This document shows positions 53,182-64,000 of a stretch of DNA of 64,000 nt, one piece after another. The first letter of the stretch is position 1, and each line of letters starts with the position of its first letter. A program made the translations under genes and the position numbers. Source of the stretch: Niebla homalea (Eukaryota > Ascomycota > Lecanoromycetes > Lecanorales > Ramalinaceae). The stretch spans positions 558,001 to 622,000 of the forward strand of contig JAHGAU010000012.1 of the NCBI GenBank assembly GCA_019925105.1, written 5' to 3'. The notes under the pieces are model-generated. The model saw nothing but the letters and a program-made list of their open reading frames with translations, did not search any database and was not told the DNA's origin.

Positions 53182-54930
53182 CTAAAAAACATGACCCTTG
53201 GTCTGCTTGATGCCGATGACCCTGATATCTCGCCACATAATCACCGCCACCACGCCAACAGCCCAGACGGCAGTGCCCGCAATCAACATCATCTTCTGCG
53301 CGTTCCCGTATGCATCCTGTATCGCTATCCGGGCGGGCGAGCCCACCGGGTACGATATCTGCCTCGTGATGTCCTCATAGATGGTGAGCAGGTTCGGGAG
53401 TTCCGAAGCAGGAAGGTATTCGGCGAGCTTTGTCGGGAAGATACCCTGCCAAATGGCGGCGGCAATCGTCAGGCCGACCGCGCCACCAATATTACCGAAC
53501 AACCCCAATACAGCCAGGACAACAGCGATGTGTTGGTGGGAAGCGGCAGCCATGATGGCGATCTCGTCGCAGATGATGATGGTCCCGGCGGCGAAGGAAA
53601 TGAAGATCTGGCACATGACGATGTAGCCAACATTTTGATCAGGCTGGCGGAAGTTGATCATCAAGCCCACGCCAAGGATGCTCAAGGGAATACCGAAGTA
53701 GAGGCAGACGGGCTTGAAGCGTCCGGTATAGTGTATCAGCAGGCCCACCGCGAGAGAGCATATGACGGAGCCAACGGTGTAAGTTTGGACGACATAACTG
53801 GCATCGCTAACGCTCAGATCATTCACCACTTGTAGGAAGGAGCTGAAGTAGCTAGTCCAGCAGTTGTAGCTAATGAACAGCGTGGCAGAAAGGATGCAAG
53901 CGCCAAGGACCGTACGATCTAGGAGGAGAGAATAGGGAATGAATGTGACTGGGGCAAGGAACCTCTCCCATATGGCGAAGAGGATTATCAGCACGATGCC
54001 AAACACCAGCAGGCAGATGATAAGGGGCGAGCGCCATCCTCTCGCTTGCAGGGTGTAAAAGTTGAATGGGAGGAGAAACAGAGCGACGCCGCCGGAGAGG
54101 AGGATGAGACCGACGGCATCAAATTCGCGGCAGTAGTAGATGAAGGACTGCCAGGTTGTACGTTGACTGTCCCGCTTCGGAATCAGACCCTGCTTCTTGG
54201 CCTTGTAATAATTGTACACCAAAAGGCCAGAGAGCGGAAATGTGATGGCTGGTACGAGAATTGTGAAGGTTCCGAAGCACCAACGCCAGCCCGGTCCGTT
54301 CAGGAAGCCCGAGGAAATGGGCCCAGCTAACCAGCAGGTGATCAGATTAGGCGACTGGGCAAAGGCCTGCATCAAACCTCGGTTGCGGAGCGAGGAGGTA
54401 TCGGCGACGAAGACGCTGAGACTGTATTGGATGCCGTTGTTCCCGACTGTGTAGAAGACTTGGGCGGCCGAGTAGGCCTCGACATTATTGCAGGCGGCCA
54501 TCATGATGAGCCCGACCGTGGCGAGAAACATGCTGAAAAGGTATCCCTGGGGTCGGCCAAACACATCCAGGATCTTAGCTAGAGTGAGATTGGTGACGCC
54601 GCCGACGACACTGCTCAGAATGCCGACGGTCGGCGTAAGCGAGTGCTGTGCAAAGGCAGAGGTAACGTAAGGATTCAGAGCAGCCGTGGTGCCCGACAGC
54701 ATGCCCTCGACAAAGTAGGTGAGCCAGATCATGACATAGGCGAAGATCAGCGCGGTCGTCGTCCATGCCACGGTCACGGCCTCAATATTCTGGACACCAG
54801 GCTGGGCACGGGTATCTACGACGGCCTCGTCTTCATGGTCGCCGGAAATAGGCTCCGAGTGCACGGAGTGCTCCAAGTCGTTGACAATGCCGGCCTCCTT
54901 CTTATCATTGTCATCAGCCTGGGGCATCAT
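53182..54930 (-). CDS. MFS transporter, siderophore-iron-transporter (SIT/ARN) type
   Basis: Single exon; start taken at MMPQADDNDKK (54930), giving 582 aa. An in-frame ATG at 55053 would add an unlikely hydrophobic leader. An acidic cytosolic N-terminus precedes ~14 hydrophobic segments. Family-like stretches include IWLTYFVEGMLSGTTAALNPYV, GGVTNLTLAKILDVFGRPQGY, QVFYTVGNNGIQYSLSVFVAD, SLRNRGLMQAFAQSPNLIT, WRWCFGTFTILVPA and the end GLFGNIGGAVGLTIAAAIWQGIFP. The SIT family imports ferric-siderophore chelates across the plasma membrane, though some members move other metal-binding metabolites. It is tail-side neighbour to the NRPS-like gene, same strand, 745 bp away, so a role as importer or exporter of the cluster product is plausible. 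Confidence 0.88.
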   Translation of the reverse strand: MMPQADDNDKKEAGIVNDLEHSVHSEPISGDHEDEAVVDTRAQPGVQNIEAVTVAWTTTALIFAYVMIWLTYFVEGMLSGTTAALNPYVTSAFAQHSLTPTVGILSSVVGGVTNLTLAKILDVFGRPQGYLFSMFLATVGLIMMAACNNVEAYSAAQVFYTVGNNGIQYSLSVFVADTSSLRNRGLMQAFAQSPNLITCWLAGPISSGFLNGPGWRWCFGTFTILVPAITFPLSGLLVYNYYKAKKQGLIPKRDSQRTTWQSFIYYCREFDAVGLILLSGGVALFLLPFNFYTLQARGWRSPLIICLLVFGIVLIILFAIWERFLAPVTFIPYSLLLDRTVLGACILSATLFISYNCWTSYFSSFLQVVNDLSVSDASYVVQTYTVGSVICSLAVGLLIHYTGRFKPVCLYFGIPLSILGVGLMINFRQPDQNVGYIVMCQIFISFAAGTIIICDEIAIMAAASHQHIAVVLAVLGLFGNIGGAVGLTIAAAIWQGIFPTKLAEYLPASELPNLLTIYEDITRQISYPVGSPARIAIQDAYGNAQKMMLIAGTAVWAVGVVAVIMWRDIRVIGIKQTKGHVF

Positions 54931-55053
54931 GGTCAGCAGCTGGAGAGGGGAGAGGGGGGAAGAGCTGCAGAAGAGGGAGAGAAATGGGATTGATAGTGAA
55001 GTAGTCGATGTTGATCGAAGGGAGAGTGACATGTGAGTGAGTTGATATACCAT

Positions 55054-55674
55054 TTGACTCTCTTGGACGTGTGGGTACGGAAGTCTCGACTCTTGTGTGA
55101 CTCCCGTACGTCAAAGCTCTACGTCGCCACACATGATAGCTCCGGTGGGACAAACGGGGGGAACGCAGGACTTGTAACGAATGATAACAGCCTCAAACCT
55201 TCTCACGGGAGCTAGAAGACTGTCCAATGACAATAGCCTCAAACCTTCTCACAGCCTTGCATGAACTAAAATAGCCTGCAGCTTACAGGGCTAGCGAGCT
55301 GCATGATATATTGATACATCGCTCGACATCCGTACCCTTGAGGGCGGTGTGGCAATTGCCCCGGGCTTCCCCAAGCATCCTGGTGAGCTTGATCTCCCCC
55401 CAGCTTAAAAATCGTGCAGTGGCGACACTAATCGACCCTTACTTACATAGACCAAAACGGTATATAATACTTGTCTCAGAGCCGGTCACGACTTGCATTT
55501 TGTCCCAAGGCTCCCACGCCGTCACGCACTTTGTTACTGTCTACCTTACCGATCATCCTCGGTACAGACGGCGACTGAACATTCGCGTAGAGCAAGATCT
55601 ATGCCGACATGGGTCGGAGCTCGCGCGACGATTTTAGATCCGTATCTGGTGAGAATCTAGAGCTACGGAATACC
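55054..55674. promoter_or_regulatory. Promoter region of the MFS transporter
   Basis: Lies between the NRPS-like stop and the MFS start, both on the minus strand. Contains an 18-bp direct repeat listed below and no gene. Confidence 0.4.
55189..55252. repeat. 18-bp perfect direct repeat upstream of the MFS transporter
   Basis: agcctcaaaccttctcac occurs at 55189-55206 and 55235-55252 (46 bp centre to centre), about 260-320 bp upstream of the MFS start. The flanks differ apart from a few bases, so the repeat itself may be a duplicated site. Confidence 0.85.
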
Positions 55675-58600
55675 TTAGCAACTATCCACAAGCTTTGCAT
55701 ACTTGGTAAATTCATCGTCCGTTTTGAACATTTCCAACTCCTCCGGGAGCGTGCCCAGAACCAGCTCCACACCACCATCATTTTTCATGGGGTAAATGAC
55801 CAGAAATCGAAACCGCTTGTGACCCCGCTCGATTTGTGGCCGCATCGCTTGGGGCGAGCCTCCATAGGCGAAGAATCTATCACCAAACGAGATCTCGCTT
55901 GTCTGGAACAGCATCAAATTAGAAATCATGGCGTGCATTCCAGCAAGACCTGCGCAGGCGATGCTGAAATCGTCATGGTCGGGCAAGAACTGAAGAAGCG
56001 TGAAAGCATCATGTACAAGCGAAGGTGTGATACGCGCGGCAGCCTCGCGGAGGACATACGCTATACGTCCAATGCTGGTCTCTGGCGAGCAGAGTGTCTC
56101 AACGGGCATGTTGGGTCGATTTAGTATGAGCATGCTGCCCATATACGATGATGGCAACAAGGGAGAGAAGTAAGGGCGGCCATCAACAGGCAATTCCAGA
56201 ACCGACATCTCGTTGAGGCCGAATGTTTCTCCCCGAAGCTCCTTAGCCACCCGGTAGCGTGCCTTGATCGCAGAGCGCCAGAAGAAGGCTTGCACGATAT
56301 CACTGACGGATGTAATGACCCCCTTCGCCTCGGGATCAGCAAGTACCTCTTGTTTAAGCTTTTGCAAGTTCTCCGGCGGGACCAAGAACATGGTAGTGCT
56401 CAGGCTGTCCGGAGCAGGGGCGGGTGGCCAGACGAATCTTCGAGGGAAGACGGGTGCAGGAGGGAGAGCCTTCTCCTGTGAGAGGCGAGAATTCTTGGGA
56501 TCGGTTGTGCTATTTTCATGCATTCTAAGGGTTTCCTTGGGTGGTAGAAATGGCAGAAAGCCCCATACGCCAGGATCTATCTCATGAGCTGGTCGCGCGT
56601 ACCCTTCTTGTTCGTATAGGATTTCGGGCAGGCTGTGATTGAAGCTCTCCGGGTCCAACCAGCTGCAGGTCGCGGACACATCGCCTTGGAGATAGCGGCA
56701 ATTTTCAGCCCAGACTTGCAGAGCGACCATCACACCAATGCCATCAAAGCAGCAGTGGTGGAAATTCGTCGCCAGGATGCAACCGCCTTCCACGAAATTG
56801 GCCTGTGCGATCAAAATATCAGCCGGCAGCGGCGGAAACGGGTTGCCTCCAAGGACCAGTTCGTCCTTGAATGCGGAGGGCACAAATCCAGCACCTCGTA
56901 ACTCCTCGAACGGCGGAAGAACATGAGAAAGATTCTTAAAGACCAATTGCCTTGGCCCTTTAGAGGGATCCGCGTTGTTGCAATTCGAGGAGACCGAAGA
57001 TGGAAGAGCCGGCATTGTGAGACAAAGGTCGCCCTTTTTGTGACCGATCTCTTGTTCCGAGCACGCCATCATCTTCCCGTCAAGAGCTGGGATAAGTTGC
57101 ATGGTACGGCGGAGACCCTCCTGGAGATTGGCAAAAGCTTCCTCGAAGCTGATCCCCTTCTGTAGAGCAAAGAAGAAATTCAACCCCATGTAGTGATTAA
57201 AATTCACATAATCAAATGGGTTCAACTTGAACGAGAGCCGCGCTTTATGTTTGTCTATCATTCTTCTCAATTGACCAACCTCGCTGTCAACCGGGTCGCC
57301 TGAAGGGAATCCGTTTTTCTTCCTCGCCTCAGCCGCAAAACGTGCAAGAGCAGCAGAGAACTTGGCAAGGGTGGGATTTGCGTAGAGGTGTCGAGGAGCA
57401 ACTTGATCCCGTAGGCCCATGGCAGCCCGGATAGTCTTGACAGCTCGAAATACAAGAATAGAGTCTAGCCCGAGATTGAAAATGTCTGTATCTGGCGAGG
57501 CTTCGTGAATCGCGGGCAACAAGGAACCGAGGATGTGGCGGACGGAGTGCATAATCGACTCCACAGAGCTTGTGTCGACAGTGGCAGCGTCAGTATCCTC
57601 ACCTCGCGAGTTATAGAAGCGCTCGATATAGTCGGCAAAAAGTGCTAGAGTAGCACGTCGCTTGACAGTTCCCTTGTCGGTGCGGACGAAGGGTTTGTCT
57701 GGCTCCGTGAAGGTGATATAGTCTCGATGCAGCTGATTTTTGTGTAGAGACAGCTTATTGGCTTTTTCTACTGTTGACCATATGCTGTCAAAGAGATCGT
57801 TGTCTCTCGATGACCGATCTTTCAACTCAATGAGCAGGCCTGCCTGGGGCTTGCCCGTCCCAATCTGTAAGGCATTACTTCCTTAGCCCTTCGGTGCTAA
57901 TTTCTTGGGGCATGAGGAGAGCTCGAGTGGGCTCACTTACCACGAGGCAACCGTCGACTGCAGGGTGCGTTGTGACGAAAGCTTCCGTGTCTAAGGGCGA
58001 TATCTTATAGCCATTGGACAGAACTACTAGATCGTCGCTTCTTCCCTTGAAGGCCCAAAGATTGGGCTTGGTGGGATGCTTGACGTATAAATCTTTAAAA
58101 TTGATCGATTGTTCGGCCGGAAAAGTGTAGAAAATTCCCTGGAACAGGGGCCAGTGCTCATTACGATGCACCCAATGCTCATATGTGTCGGGCTCCACTT
58201 CTTTGAATTCGAAGCCGGAGAAGGGATGGAAAGCGAACCAGAGCCAGTCTTCTCTTTCTACCACGAGGTTACCTATGAATAGACCCTCCGTTGTCCCCGT
58301 CAGATTCAAGACTCGGATAACAGCATTGACCTTGCCTGCGCTGATTGGGCTGACGGGGCCTGAAGACTAGGAGCATTAGTGACGTGAACTTGGGAAGAAA
58401 AAGCGACGGGAAGAAGATGCGTACCGCCAGATGCGCAAATGAATTTCGAGGATTTGAACTTTGCCAAGACATCGGGGCTCTCGCCCAGCTCGTCTACCAG
58501 TGATGGGACCATACTCCAGATATCAATTCTCCCATGATCTGCGAGAGACTCCAGCAGATGCACATTAGGCAGTACGCTCGCAGGTCCCAAGATGCAGTGC

Positions 58601-59570
58601 AGGCCGAAGAGCGAAGGCAAAAGAATGTCCATTATGATACCGGCACCCTGTAAATATACAAAGTTATGCAATTGACCAAAAGGATTCCAAGACGCTTGGG
58701 AAGAATCTGCTTACATGACTCATCGGGAATGACGAGTATATTCTATCGCCTTCATTCCACAGAGAGGTCCATGGGGCCAAGCCATCATCCCCCTCAATAG
58801 GTGGAAGCAGCCTGACTGCATCCATCGTGCCAATCAGACCGTGAGACCATGGAATAGGTTTTGGGACTCCTGTGGACCCGGAGGTATGCAGGAAGCAAAA
58901 TGGCTCGTGAACAGCTTCATCAAATGTCCTGTCATACGGGAACCATTCCGTAGAATCAGCATCGAGCAGCTCGTCAATCTCAGGGATTTCCAGAAGCTTC
59001 ATAGGGCGTTGCTGCAAGCAGGCTTCTACCAGAGGAATACGGGGTTGCTCGCGAGGCTGGACCCAAAAATTGCATTTGACTGCATCCAGGACTGCGAGAG
59101 CTCCTTCAGTGTTATTCTTGGGAGAAAGAAACAAGGCCTGCGCGAAAGGGATGAAACACGAAATGTCAGCCCGCCAAACCCCAGGTGCTCTTCACTAGAG
59201 TTAAACCATACAGCATAGCCAGCCTTGACACAGGCGTAGGTCAATAGAACATGTCGTAAATCATCTTAATAGTCAGCAAATGGGCTCCATTTCCAATGCT
59301 AAACTTGAGGGATTTTTTGTCCAACCTACGAGGCCCAATGTAGCCCACTGTCTGGATCAGCGTAGGTCTTCCGAGCTGGTCCTGGAGCCACCAAGCGGTT
59401 TTGTCAACTGCCTTGGCGAAGGTGCGGGCAGATAGATGACGAAATCCATGTGAAATATCGGAATGTGCCGCCACCGAGTAAATGATGCGATCCGCTTCAA
59501 TAGAGGCCAGACTGTCCAGGATTTGAGGAAGAAGCCTCCTTCCATATTCCCTTGAGGCAGTCAATGCCAT
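55675..59570 (-). CDS. NRPS-like enzyme: adenylation - thiolation - BAHD-type acyltransferase
   Basis: Six exons: 59570-59330, 59264-59212, 59137-58715, 58647-58425, 58359-57941 and 57864-55675, giving 1182 aa. The adenylation domain shows YIGPHDLRHVLLTYACVKAGY, the P-loop HTSGSTGVPKP (~182-192), NLTGTTEG (~332), and FKGRSDDLVVLSNGYKISP. A carrier domain follows with the phosphopantetheine serine in FNLGLDSILVFR (~Ser588). The C-terminal ~480 residues are a BAHD/trichothecene-acetyltransferase-like domain with HHCCFDG (HxxxD, His823) and a late SFGDRFFAYGG in the position of the DFGWG motif. There is no condensation, thioesterase or reductase domain. Such an enzyme would activate one carboxylic acid, hold it as thioester and pass it to an alcohol or amine. 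It is divergent from the isocyanide synthase fusion gene. From memory, the same A-T-transferase order forms the C-terminal part of A. fumigatus CrmA. Confidence 0.9.
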
Positions 59571-60921
59571 TGCAACAATCCAGAAGAAGCTATTGGCAAA
59601 GCGACAGGCTCGTCTTTATATTGCAAGAGACAATTAGGAGAAAGGCGTGTTGCTAAAGATGAGTTGGACACCTAACATACTTATACCACCGTGCTCAAGA
59701 TGCAAATAGACACAAGCGCGCATGGGTACACCATGATTCGGCTCATTTCATGACATTGGCAAGCCTGCTGACCAGACTCATCCCTTTGTGCCTTTACGGC
59801 CGCAGCGTAAGCTAAGGCACCCAGTCGCTTCTTCTGGCCGAGTCTCGAAACCCAACTATCGAGCTCGGGTTTCTGGAAACCTTGGACGGCATGTAACGCT
59901 TCTAAGCATGCACGGACTGCATGTCTGCATCGGAACTTTGGCCCATTTCCGGTTCGAAGGGTTCGATCTGCATGCATGCCAGCCTACTGGGCCAGAGACC
60001 TATCACACCTACGAATGGCTCCTTTTCTCTTAGGTCTGTAATGTAAGAAATCACAGATGAAGATGTGGATGACTCCACCTAGCAGGAATGGATCGTCATC
60101 CTGAGCGTTGTTGGATAGGAAGGCTTACAGTGCATTTTACCATACTGACTAAGTGTATTAGCACGAATAGAAGAGGAAGGAATAGGCAAATTTTACAAGG
60201 CAGGTATGCCAAGACGTTAGGACCCGGTAACCAAGCAATTAGCCCTGTTATCATAAGGCTGTTAAAATACGCTTCAGCAATCCTGACTGCTACACACTCG
60301 ATCACATCGTAATCGCTGAGCTCAGTCATTGACGACTGGTGAGAAGCTGACAGTCATTTTCGGACCCACAGCTACTCACCCCTTAGCTGCTTCTTATGGC
60401 GTCGAATGAAATGTGATACTCTGCGTCCGTGTTCAGAGCACACGTCCGGCTTCGATAGCCGCTCTTATGTAGCTGCCAGTAAGCAACGCTCAGATAGCTT
60501 GGACATCTGGCGAAAAGTGTCCGATAGGCCGGCTTGTTGATGGATTGAATGCTTGCTAGACCCTCCCCAATTTCGCCCCCAATCCAATATGGGTCATCTG
60601 CACACACGTTCACCGCTGCTCAAAATGTTGACTAAAGACCAATTTCAGGCTACATTCCGCCCGGGCTAGCCACTACTCCGTCTCTACTTATGCTAGCCTG
60701 GAACTGGGATCGTGAAAGTAGGGATGGAAATTGTGGGTCGCTTTTCCACGATGTCGTAAGACTGGTAGGTCGTGTCGCCTCATTGAGGCATATAGCGGCA
60801 GCGTAAGTATTAACTAGCTGGCTTATAAACCAGTGTTTCTTGAAGATTTTTCTCTTCGGTTCCCATTTCATTTCATTTCACGTCTCCTCTGTACTTCAGT
60901 TTTACCCAGCTCGTTTAACCA
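59571..60921. promoter_or_regulatory. Divergent promoter region between NRPS-like and isocyanide synthase-ABC genes
   Basis: 1.35 kb shared upstream region; no gene recognised. A GAGCACA (TGTGCTC on the minus strand) at 60436-60442 resembles the copper-responsive Mac1 site. Confidence 0.45.
60436..60442 (-). promoter_or_regulatory. TGTGCTC, candidate Mac1-type copper-response site
   Basis: Reads TGTGCTCT on the minus strand. The A. fumigatus Mac1 consensus, as I remember it, is TGTGCTCA, so this matches seven of eight bases. It occurs once in the shared promoter, where low-copper control would make sense, but one 7-mer may be chance. Confidence 0.25.
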
Positions 60922-63900
60922 ATGATGCAGTTTGTTCCCCAACCGACAAGCGTCCCTGAAGGATCTCCTCTAAATAAGGAAAAATCCGCCCATGTTTCCC
61001 ACATCACGATGGAAGTAACGGAGACTTCCAACAAAATCTTGGATATAATCTTCGAGTACGCCCTCAACAAATTCCATGACACTATGGAACGACTCAATGC
61101 CGGAAGGCCGAAGTTTTTGTCAGTCATCGACCATTTCGTCAAAGTGGAGGCGCAGGTGGAAATGTGCCTCCCAGCATTCCCATTCAAATCGGCAAATAAG
61201 GTCTCCAAAGTGTTTGGTGTTCTCCCAGACAAAGCAGAAGAATTGGCTCTTGAACGCTTGGACACGATGTGCAAGCGCATTGGCGAAATGTACCCACCTG
61301 GTGCTAAGCTCACTATCATCTCGGATGGCCTTGTTTACAATGGTTCGTCCGACCCCGTCGAAGCCAAATCCCCCACTTTGAGCCTCTCGCTAATAGAGGG
61401 ATTTTGCGTTGGCAGACTTGTTGGGCATACCAGATCGCGACACGTGGGCCTACGGAGAGGCTCTACGCACAATGACTGTCGAGAAGGGGTACAAACATAT
61501 TGACTTCTCTAGACTTAGAGACCTAGTCAACTTCTCCTTGCCAGAAAGGTTAGAAGAGATCACTTACGTCGCCAATGCCACCAACTTTCGTCGATTCCTC
61601 TTCAACAAATATGGGAAAGATGACCTCGACATTGATCACGAGATTGCTACTAATCCCGATACACACTTGACTTATCTCGGATACCGACGGTTCCTGGAGT
61701 CAGACTTGAGACATATCTTCCCGCTCCGCGAAGGTAGATCGCACAGAAGCTACAAGAGGGACGTGCAGTACCTTGCGAAGCAGATGTTGATCCGAGGACA
61801 TGTAAGTACATCTCGATTTAGTTTCCCCGGGCCTTGATATTATAGCGTATTTGGTTTTTGCTCTAGCTAATCATCCTTCGAACAGGCGTTTGCAGGGGCC
61901 GTTGACTTCGCCTTTCCAAAGTACTTGCGCCTGTCTATTCATCAATCTACAGGTGAGCACAAGGTGTCCATGAGCCTACTTAATACCAAGACTGGATTCA
62001 CGACGCCATGGCACTGTAGCGTCGCCTTGACGGCGGATGGTGAGTGGATAAGCGGCACAATGGGCGATTTCAAGAAAGATCCCATGCTGGAAATCGTATA
62101 CGAGCATGGCCGACCCAGCTATTTCCAGCAAAAGACACGCGAGCTTCATGAGCCAATTGAAAAGGAAGATTCAGCAAGCTACCAGCAAGCACCACAGGGA
62201 CTCAGTGGGCACTCCGTGGGGCTAATTTCTAAAACGGAAGCCGCTGCCGAGAAAGACGTGAAGATAGTGGAAGAGAAGATCCCACATCAAGCGTCCACGC
62301 CAGCCAGTTCAATTCTAGATGCAAGCAAAGAAAAAACCATTACTGACCTTGCAAGGGCACTCTCATACCACGGTATTCAGAACGAGAAGGGAGAGCTCAT
62401 CAACCCTTTCTTGGACTCTGAGCATCCTTTGCTGGATCCAAAATCGGGCAAATTCAGCTCAAAGGCATGGCTCGAAACGCTGATGAGCATTGCGTCGAGA
62501 GATCCTGACCGTTATCCCAAGAGGGTCGCTGGTGTAGCATATAAGAACCTCGCAGCTCATGGATTCGGGGAGCCGACGGACTATCAGAAGACTTTTGGGA
62601 ATTACCCTTTCAAACTACTCAGCTGGGCTACGAGGCTTTTTGGGAATGGGAAGAAGACCAGGATCCAGATCTTAAGGGATTCCGATGGCTTGGTCAAGAG
62701 TGGAGAGATGCTTGTGGTACTGGGTAGGCCCGGGAGGCAGGTGATACTCTGGTAGGTCTCGGAGAGCATTGCTGACAAGTGCAGTGGCTGTTCGACGCTC
62801 TTGAAGATCATCTCCGGAGAGACTGATGGGCTCTATGTCGCAAATAATTCTTACTTGAATTATCAAGGCATCTCAAAGGAGACGATGCACAAAGACTTTA
62901 GAGGAGAATGTATCTACCAGGCTGAGGTCGACGTACACTTTCCGCAGTTGACCGTGGGTCAGACTCTCGACTTCGCTGCTCGTGCTAGGGTATGTTGGAT
63001 GGAGTTCCTCAGTCTGAGTACCTGGTTGACTCTTAGAAGGCGCCCCATAATCGCATGCCTGGTGTAAGCCGAGATGTAGGTGTTCATGAATTATTTTCCC
63101 CATAAGAAATCATGTAGGACGCTTTCAGTCTGATTGCTTCCCTAGATCCACGCAGAACATCTACGAGATGTCGTCATGACGATCTTTGGTCTCAGCCACA
63201 CAATTAATACGATGGTTCAAATCCTCTAACGTAACTTCAATACTTCCAGCTGACGTGAATACAAGGTTGGTAATGATTTTGTTCGAGGAGTCTCCGGAGG
63301 TGAACGAAAACGTGTTAGTATTGCAGAAGCGTAGATTACCCCCGAAGTCCCCTACTCATGATCTCCTGGCTAACACGAATCATGCATAGGACTATTGCGA
63401 GCAGTCCGTTGCAATGTTGGGATAACAGTACGCGTGGGCTTGACAGTGGTACTGCTCTGGAATTCGTGCGAACACTTAGGACATCAACGGAACTAACTGG
63501 AGCGACGGCCATCGTGACTCTCTATCAGGCCTCACAGTCCATATATGATGTAAATCTCACTGTTCAAGCATAATCGCTATTCTAACGTTTGGAGGTTTTC
63601 GACAAAGTCACCGTGCTCTACGAAGGTCGCCAAATCTACTTCGGCAACATACATGCGGCGAAAACATTCTTCGTCAATCTTGGCTTCGAATGTCCACTTC
63701 GACAAACAACGGCCGACTTTCTCACATCCTTAACGAACCCAGCAGAAAGGTTAGTCCGCAAAGACTTCGAAGGCATGACACCGTCAACACCAGATGAATT
63801 CGCTGCCGTGTGGCAACAGAGTGAGGATCGAGCACGCCTACTCGAGGAGATTGAGGAGTTTGACATCAATTATCCCATTGGAGGACCGGCACTCGATGCT

Positions 63901-64000
63901 TTCAAACACTCACGGAAAGCTTCGCAAGCAAGATCGCAGTATGTTTAAGCCTCTACCCGCCACTTGTACCTGTAATGACTCAAGTTAGGCGCGTACAATC
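60922..64000 (+). CDS. Isocyanide synthase fused to a PDR/ABCG transporter (3' end beyond window)
   Basis: Exons 60922-61342, 61416-61801, 61886-62736, 62785-62989, 63040-63075, 63146-63214, 63266-63330, 63390-63549, 63595-63938 and 63989 onward; about 849 residues lie in the window. Residues 1-~410 are a DIT1/PvcA isocyanide synthase ([60 protein letters not shown]), which turns an amino-acid alpha-amine into an isocyanide. Exon 3 runs on without stop through a ~70-residue linker into an ABC_trans_N segment ([12 protein letters not shown]). NBD1 follows: Walker A GRPGSGCSTLL (Ser553), [21 protein letters not shown], signature VSGGERKR (~665) and [10 protein letters not shown], where Asn replaces the catalytic Glu as is usual for PDR NBD1. 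Intron 3 uses a GC donor. No in-frame ATG lies between the domains, so they share one start. Membrane helices are expected right of the window. Confidence 0.88.

Follow-up and report, generated by a model that had tools for sequence, protein, structure and literature searches.

The described isocyanide synthases (ICS) of fungi fall into three architectures: in the passages of the two surveys that deal with this point, Nickles 2023 (PMC10153163) fits the whole ICS set into monodomain, ICS-TauD and ICS-NRPS-like proteins, and Lim 2018 (PMC5974471) names the same three. In CrmA of Aspergillus fumigatus, an N-terminal ICS is fused to an A-PCP-transferase part (PMC9381783, PMC5974471), and according to Won 2022 (PMC9381783) this protein produces valine isocyanide under copper starvation. 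The same paper mentions "a transporter domain" in passing, which is a hint of prior art. The stand-alone synthases (Dit1/PvcA and IcsA type) and the ICS-TauD proteins (XanB type) share PF05141 with the gene described here but have no transporter. ABCG transporters such as Cdr1 and Pdr5 are built in the order ABC_trans_N, NBD1, TMD, PDR_CDR, NBD2, TMD, and the N-terminus of PDR proteins is cytosolic. To our knowledge, neither Cdr1 nor Pdr5 carries an N-terminal enzyme.

Here, we describe a locus of Niebla homalea in which an ICS homologous to that of CrmA is fused to a PDR transporter with the domain order of Cdr1 and Pdr5, whereas the A-PCP-transferase part is encoded by a separate, divergent neighbour gene. 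In contrast to Cdr1 and Pdr5, the frame of the second transporter half is broken. An earlier note on this DNA had listed the same three fungal architectures as the two surveys name in the passages cited above, and the fusion lies outside them. Measured against these passages, and with no wider claim to novelty, the ICS-PDR protein is a fourth ICS architecture.

Results

The ICS-PDR gene

The window, i. e. the whole stretch of 64,000 nucleotides that was analysed, comprises positions 558001-622000 of contig 12 in a 50.6 Mb assembly of 52 contigs. A profile search of this genome detected PF05141 at one place only, the ICS-PDR locus, with two exon matches. The gene starts at 60922 on the plus strand, its synthase is spread over exons 1-3, and it continues into the next 20 kb to the right of the window (L003; window position = L003 + 60900). 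The corrected model contains nine introns in the window, all junctions are in phase, and its first 11 exons are open over 954 residues. Guided spliced alignment of the transporter part recovered the same introns and places the start of exon 5 at 63040. The features of the gene, all on the plus strand, are as follows:

60922..61342, +, exon 1: start codon and N-terminal part of the ICS (spliced model; PF05141 match; relative P0001 with a similar start)
61416..61801, +, exon 2: ICS core (spliced model, Pfam)
61886..62736, +, exon 3: ICS end, linker, ABC_trans_N, to NBD1 Walker A (one open frame)
62135..62338, +, variable methionine-free part of the linker, aa 353-420 (linker comparison)
62348..62602, +, ABC_trans_N domain, PF14510 (Pfam)
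62737..62784, +, GC-AG intron inside Walker A (spliced model, guided alignment)
62785..62989, +, exon 4: NBD1 (spliced model, guided alignment)
63040..63075, +, exon 5: NBD1 (guided alignment, corrected model)
63146..63214, +, exon 6: NBD1 (spliced model, guided alignment)
63266..63330, +, exon 7: NBD1 signature (spliced model, guided alignment)
63390..63549, +, exon 8: NBD1 motifs that we take to be Walker B and the D-loop region (spliced model, guided alignment)
63595..63938, +, exon 9 (GTATGT donor at 63939, in-phase junction to 63989)
63989..64000, +, beginning of exon 10 (gene continues into L003)
near L003 7036, +, stop, end of the gene (downstream reading)

The introns of this gene measure 45 to 124 bases, except for an NBD2 intron of 271 bases (L003 5189-5459).

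The earlier note had claimed that exon 61886-62736 codes without a stop from the end of the synthase to Walker A, and this is the case: the stop-to-stop ORF 61871-62755 (294 codons) contains the whole exon, and Pfam recognizes domains on both sides of the linker. In a spliced piece of 849 residues, three of them read from intron ends, DIT1_PvcA was found at aa 69-334 (E 6.7e-100), ABC_trans_N at aa 424-508 (E 1.5e-21) and ABC_tran at aa 535-693 (E 1.2e-17), and a TauD dioxygenase domain had no match in this piece. PF05141 reached 334.5 bits (cut-off 26.4) and covered positions 1-268 of the 273 in the profile. The Pfam check proposed in the note thus found the synthase and the first transporter domains, and the remaining PDR domains follow downstream; the order, obtained from four pieces searched separately, is ABC_trans_N, NBD1, TMD1, PDR_CDR, NBD2, TMD2. 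The ICS matches the solved isonitrile synthases PIsnA (9dhm, E 1.7e-32) and PvcA (3e59, E 1.5e-29) by sequence, and in the predicted model of the relative P0004 its fold resembles both (TM about 0.8 to either). The NBD1 half matches Cdr1 with E 1e-140 and Pdr5 with 1.4e-134. The AlphaFold2 model of P0004 has a mean pLDDT of 53.1 with most of the ABC part poor, and interpretation was confined to the ICS and to the linker of low confidence; since pLDDT is under 50 across the linker region 372-444, the linker is predicted to be disordered.

Could this still be two ordinary genes, with an internal promoter for the transporter or an upstream exon that has escaped notice? The non-fused proteins P0121 to P0124, which belong to the same PDR clade, have their initial methionine at roughly the corresponding position, and 13 of the 20 linkers that could be anchored on both sides (27 sequences were examined) contain at least one methionine. 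These methionines are scattered, and no position is common to all. In the window, as the note had pointed out, there is no methionine for a separate start in the 114 residues from the ICS end to the body of ABC_trans_N, and six relatives likewise lack one, so that seven of the 20 anchored linkers are methionine-free. Moreover, the linker requires no intron, the junctions are in phase, and fused gene models are present in many separate genomes. Two genes therefore fit the locus as poorly as the note had maintained, and we consider such an arrangement highly improbable. An assembly join at 62150-62350, which the note had named as a possible refutation, is more improbable still and can be neglected: nothing in the data speaks for it, the same domain order recurs in separate public assemblies, and a linker of exactly 114 residues, with differing letters, is shared by 8 of the 20 anchored sequences, the window included. 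Both explanations were rejected on the fused models of the relatives and the linker comparison. Since proteins with the same order occur in many fungi and their linker so often has the same length, the arrangement is more than chance, and the gene is almost certainly a true, conserved ICS-PDR fusion.

Relatives in other fungi

The homologue sets comprised 327, 7781 and 666 proteins, and 120 of each were among the matches listed. The fusion search used the ICS part as query against proteins of fusion-like length (327 matches, 120 listed). Among the 120 matches listed, at least 14 proteins combine PF05141 with PF14510, PF00005, PF01061, PF06422 and PF19055. They come from cf. Caloplaca, Aulographum, Clohesyomyces, Phialophora, Cladophialophora, Stagonosporopsis and Hyaloscypha, and further from three Fusarium clusters, Zasmidium, Zymoseptoria, Pseudocercospora and Purpureocillium. 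Five of these genera were looked up and represent five ascomycete classes, i. e. Leotio-, Eurotio-, Dothideo-, Sordario- and Lecanoromycetes. The search for the same architecture in other fungi that the note had called for was thus successful. Some further matches listed are partial models, and in these searches the nearest relatives of the host are mostly lichen fungi, from metagenome-assembled records. In all 30 fused or ICS-NBD2 proteins that were placed, the ICS occupies the N-terminus. P0006 (cf. Caloplaca sp. 3), P0007 (Aulographum hederae), P0009 (Phialophora macrospora), P0014 (Fusarium langsethiae) and P0062 (Zymoseptoria tritici) share with the window gene the order of N-terminal ICS, linker and full PDR transporter; their models run to the end, whereas the window gene is frame-shifted beyond the window. 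The CrmA homologues of Bipolaris (P0049) and Alternaria (P0044) have no ABC domain in their Pfam annotation.

A few proteins deviate. P0120, a partial ICS model without an ABC domain, has its ICS away from the N-terminus, and in P0013 (Haloplaca, 915 aa) the ICS precedes a long stretch for which Pfam lists no domain, possibly due to a wrong gene model. The fused-clade PDR protein P0128 and the ICS-bearing P0285 come from contigs of equal length (128113), as do P0123 and P0017 (504244), so that the members of each pair are probably encoded on the same contig; in these pairs the same modules are probably split or lie side by side.

The GC-AG intron in Walker A

The intron 62737-62784 (48 bases) has GC-AG rather than GT-AG borders, and its removal yields an ordinary PDR-type Walker A. 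It contains a branch-point-like CTGAC, judged by what we assume to be the branch consensus. At the same place the gene models of eight relatives go astray: six lichen or environmental models stop or derail at LGRPGR, which corresponds to the GC-AG donor, and P0001 and P0002 read through the intron. The model of the non-fused P0124 is disturbed there as well. The intron is apparently conserved among the relatives. Because the models derail at this point, ICS-PDR fusions take on the appearance of an ICS with an ABC_trans_N tail, and the unusual intron may partly account for the fusion being hidden in gene models. The models concerned are P0001, P0002, P0230, P0234, P0235, P0242, P0243, P0253 and P0124.

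The transporter half beyond the window

Downstream of the window, the transporter continues through TMD1, PDR_CDR, NBD2 and TMD2 to the stop near L003 7036. The frame is not continuous through both PDR halves: as compared to the close relative P0121, one-base frame shifts lie near L003 4439 and near L003 5556, the latter in the NBD2 H-loop region, leaving no space for an intron. In addition, four residues are absent directly after the NBD2 Q-loop, at the motif QQDLHL, which 37 of the 38 comparison transporters retain and the 38th has with one letter changed. The earlier note had stated that the downstream introns splice in frame, as do the nine junctions in the window, and that neither half looks decayed; the latter statement is correct within the window but fails beyond it, where the transporter carries the two shifts and the loss in NBD2. 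The ICS frame itself is intact.

The fusion might be fully working in this genome if both shifts were assembly errors. This would agree with the amino acid changes, which show no clear excess in the window transporter over the fused relative P0006: the unique changes (window/P0006) amount to 25/19 in ABC_N and NBD1, 8/14 in TMD1, 15/14 in NBD2 and 23/60 in TMD2, as compared to 16/23 in the ICS. Yet none of the six further PDR genes in this genome, about 26 kb in all and treated by the same procedure, has a frame shift or an internal stop, and none was found in this way in the NRPS-like neighbour gene; in the underlying alignments an intron is slightly cheaper than a shift, so that a shift beside an intron-like pair may appear as an intron, and this applies equally to the control genes and to the fused gene. 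The loss of four residues at so well kept a motif also speaks against mere assembly errors. We regard an undamaged fusion as doubtful, though it retains appreciable weight. Probably, the pump half in this genome is no longer whole; the present product would then be an ICS with about half a transporter. Since the substitutions show no clear relaxation, the damage is either recent or an assembly error.

A split crm-type cluster

Two neighbouring genes on the minus strand complete the picture:

55675..59579, -, NRPS-like gene with AMP-binding, PCP and TRI-like transferase parts and five introns (profiles, tblastn to CrmA)
53182..55110, -, MFS transporter ORF, PF07690 and PF06609, a possible cluster member (Pfam)

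The exons of the NRPS-like gene match AMP-binding_C_3, PCP and the TRI-like transferase, and AMP-binding remains slightly below the curated cut-off in the single exon that was searched for it. In tblastn, the gene covers aa 419-1580 of A. fumigatus CrmA with 52-82% identity per piece, which is nearly all of CrmA except the ICS. Every CrmA module is thus present at one locus, the ICS from 60922 and the remainder at 55675-59579. The modules are not joined on a single polypeptide; the A-PCP-transferase part is a separate minus-strand gene. Its nearest relative is a CrmA-type protein of Lojkania, with 74% over the large exon and a support of 90/68 for the pairing, and the Lojkania ICS in turn groups as sister to the lichen-type fused ICS (90/79). 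From this kinship of both parts it follows that the ICS and the NRPS-like enzyme form one protein in Lojkania and are encoded by two genes here, with the ICS paired with a pump. As judged from sequence, the locus is a split crm-type cluster in which the NRPS-like gene is divergent to the ICS-PDR gene. Past the MFS transporter, genes for Mgm101 and a 3-hydroxyacyl-CoA dehydrogenase follow. On the other side, from L003 7940 onwards, a gene resembles by eye a biotin-protein ligase, and the cluster may end there. The motif TGTGCTCA, which we take to be the copper box, is not enriched, with two matches in the window as compared to 3.03 expected; one lies at 61954 inside the ICS-PDR gene, and neither is upstream of this gene.

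Phylogeny and reduced relatives

The PDR tree has 47 rows (28 of 108 newly listed transporters, 18 fused proteins, four rows of fused proteins being under half filled, and the window gene). All 19 fused rows fall into one clade of 29 (SH-aLRT 100) in which 10 non-fused proteins are nested, and this requires a minimum of five changes, e. g. one gain and four losses. In the ICS tree, eight lichen-type fused rows, the window gene among them, form a clade (100/98), so that both trees place this gene within fused clades. That all fused-like ICS form one clade was rejected by the ICS tree (AU p = 6e-5) in a set from which 19 rows (fused, NBD2, remnant and NRPS groups) had been dropped as long branches or near copies, and in which 9 of 35 'short' rows, a group that may include truncated gene models, were kept. 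The trees fit an old fusion that broke on many occasions, or several fusions between neighbours.

A PDR-like stretch is present in 41 of the 240 ICS proteins among the matches listed. Because ICS and transporter are so often uncoupled, the ICS can do without the pump. One reduced type, called ICS-NBD2 here, comprises 10 rows that form one clade in the NBD2 tree (SH-aLRT 100) and lie among the fused ICS in the ICS tree (99/95). Like the window gene, proteins such as P0026 (Fonsecaea), P0023 (Venturia) and P0047 (Exserohilum) combine an ICS with a PDR piece, but they retain only NBD2 and have no membrane-domain match. By pattern, Gln replaces Glu of Walker B in eight of 10, and the H-loop His is lost in eight of the nine that were read; their NBD2 is a possible ATP-binding but non-hydrolysing appendage. 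The members are P0023, P0026, P0028, P0031, P0033, P0035, P0037, P0047, P0052 and P0059. An AlphaFold2 model of an ICS-NBD2 protein was set aside (mean pLDDT 43.8).

Other ICS proteins look stand-alone but carry scraps of a transporter at their C-terminal end, i. e. a piece of TMD1 in Plenodomus (P0244, P0249, P0255), a degenerate ABC_trans_N in the Fusarium oxysporum group (P0266, P0278, P0281) and a C-terminal piece in Oidiodendron (P0252). The label 'remnant' was given to P0244, P0249, P0266 and P0278 first by eye and then checked; the same check found no scrap in P0247, P0241, P0256, P0292, P0316, P0317, P0336 and P0341. The scrap-bearing proteins give the impression of a repeated loss of the pump.

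Discussion

Our work suggests that ICS-PDR proteins are a widespread and little-described family, that the locus is a split crm cluster in which synthesis and export are tethered, and that the fusion has recently been broken in this genome; taken as a whole, we hold this proposal to be likely. The fused frame, its conservation and the neighbour gene are read directly from the sequence. For substrate, product, export and coupling we infer a membrane-tied synthase with its own exporter, because of the kinship of the ICS with PvcA and PIsnA, the reported product of CrmA, the kinship of NBD1 with Cdr1 and Pdr5, and the low pLDDT of the P0004 linker. The N-terminal ICS would convert an amino acid, most likely valine, to an isocyanide acid, the neighbouring A-PCP-transferase protein would activate this acid and esterify it to a carrier alcohol, and the tethered PDR pump would export the reactive product. 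Synthesis would thereby sit at the membrane, and enzyme and pump would be made one to one. Such a coupling of synthesis to efflux had been suggested in the note.

The lack of copper-box enrichment counts against this proposal, and so do the methionines in 13 of the 20 anchored linkers. The joining could also be a by-product of gene packing, in which neighbouring ICS and PDR genes of an ancestral cluster lost their boundary and the tether brought no gain. The ICS proteins with mere pieces or scraps of a transporter, the several changes needed in the ICS tree, and the methionine near ABC_trans_N with which P0121 to P0124 of the same clade begin would all be expected of such a passive event. However, the fused frame has been kept across five classes, and in the lichen group the linker has remained constant in length while its letters diverged. 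We consider a fusion without gain unlikely, and prefer the tethering of synthesis and export.

Tentatively, and as a reading that we consider less likely than not, we extend this idea to the family: ICS-PDR proteins may be self-exporting enzymes across Pezizomycotina, the ICS may be an exchangeable module that swapped between a CrmA-type and an exporter partner, and in a derived group the pump may have been reduced to a catalytically dead NBD2 that could regulate the synthase via ATP binding. ICS, NRPS-like enzyme and PDR pump are fused in differing pairs in differing fungi, and an enzyme-exporter architecture is added to a class of copper-linked fungal metabolites for which the passages of the surveys list three. 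If the proposal is true, the synthesis of a copper-binding isocyanide would be physically tied to an efflux pump across Pezizomycotina. The fusion also provides a natural test of whether a producer is protected when synthase and pump are tied together.
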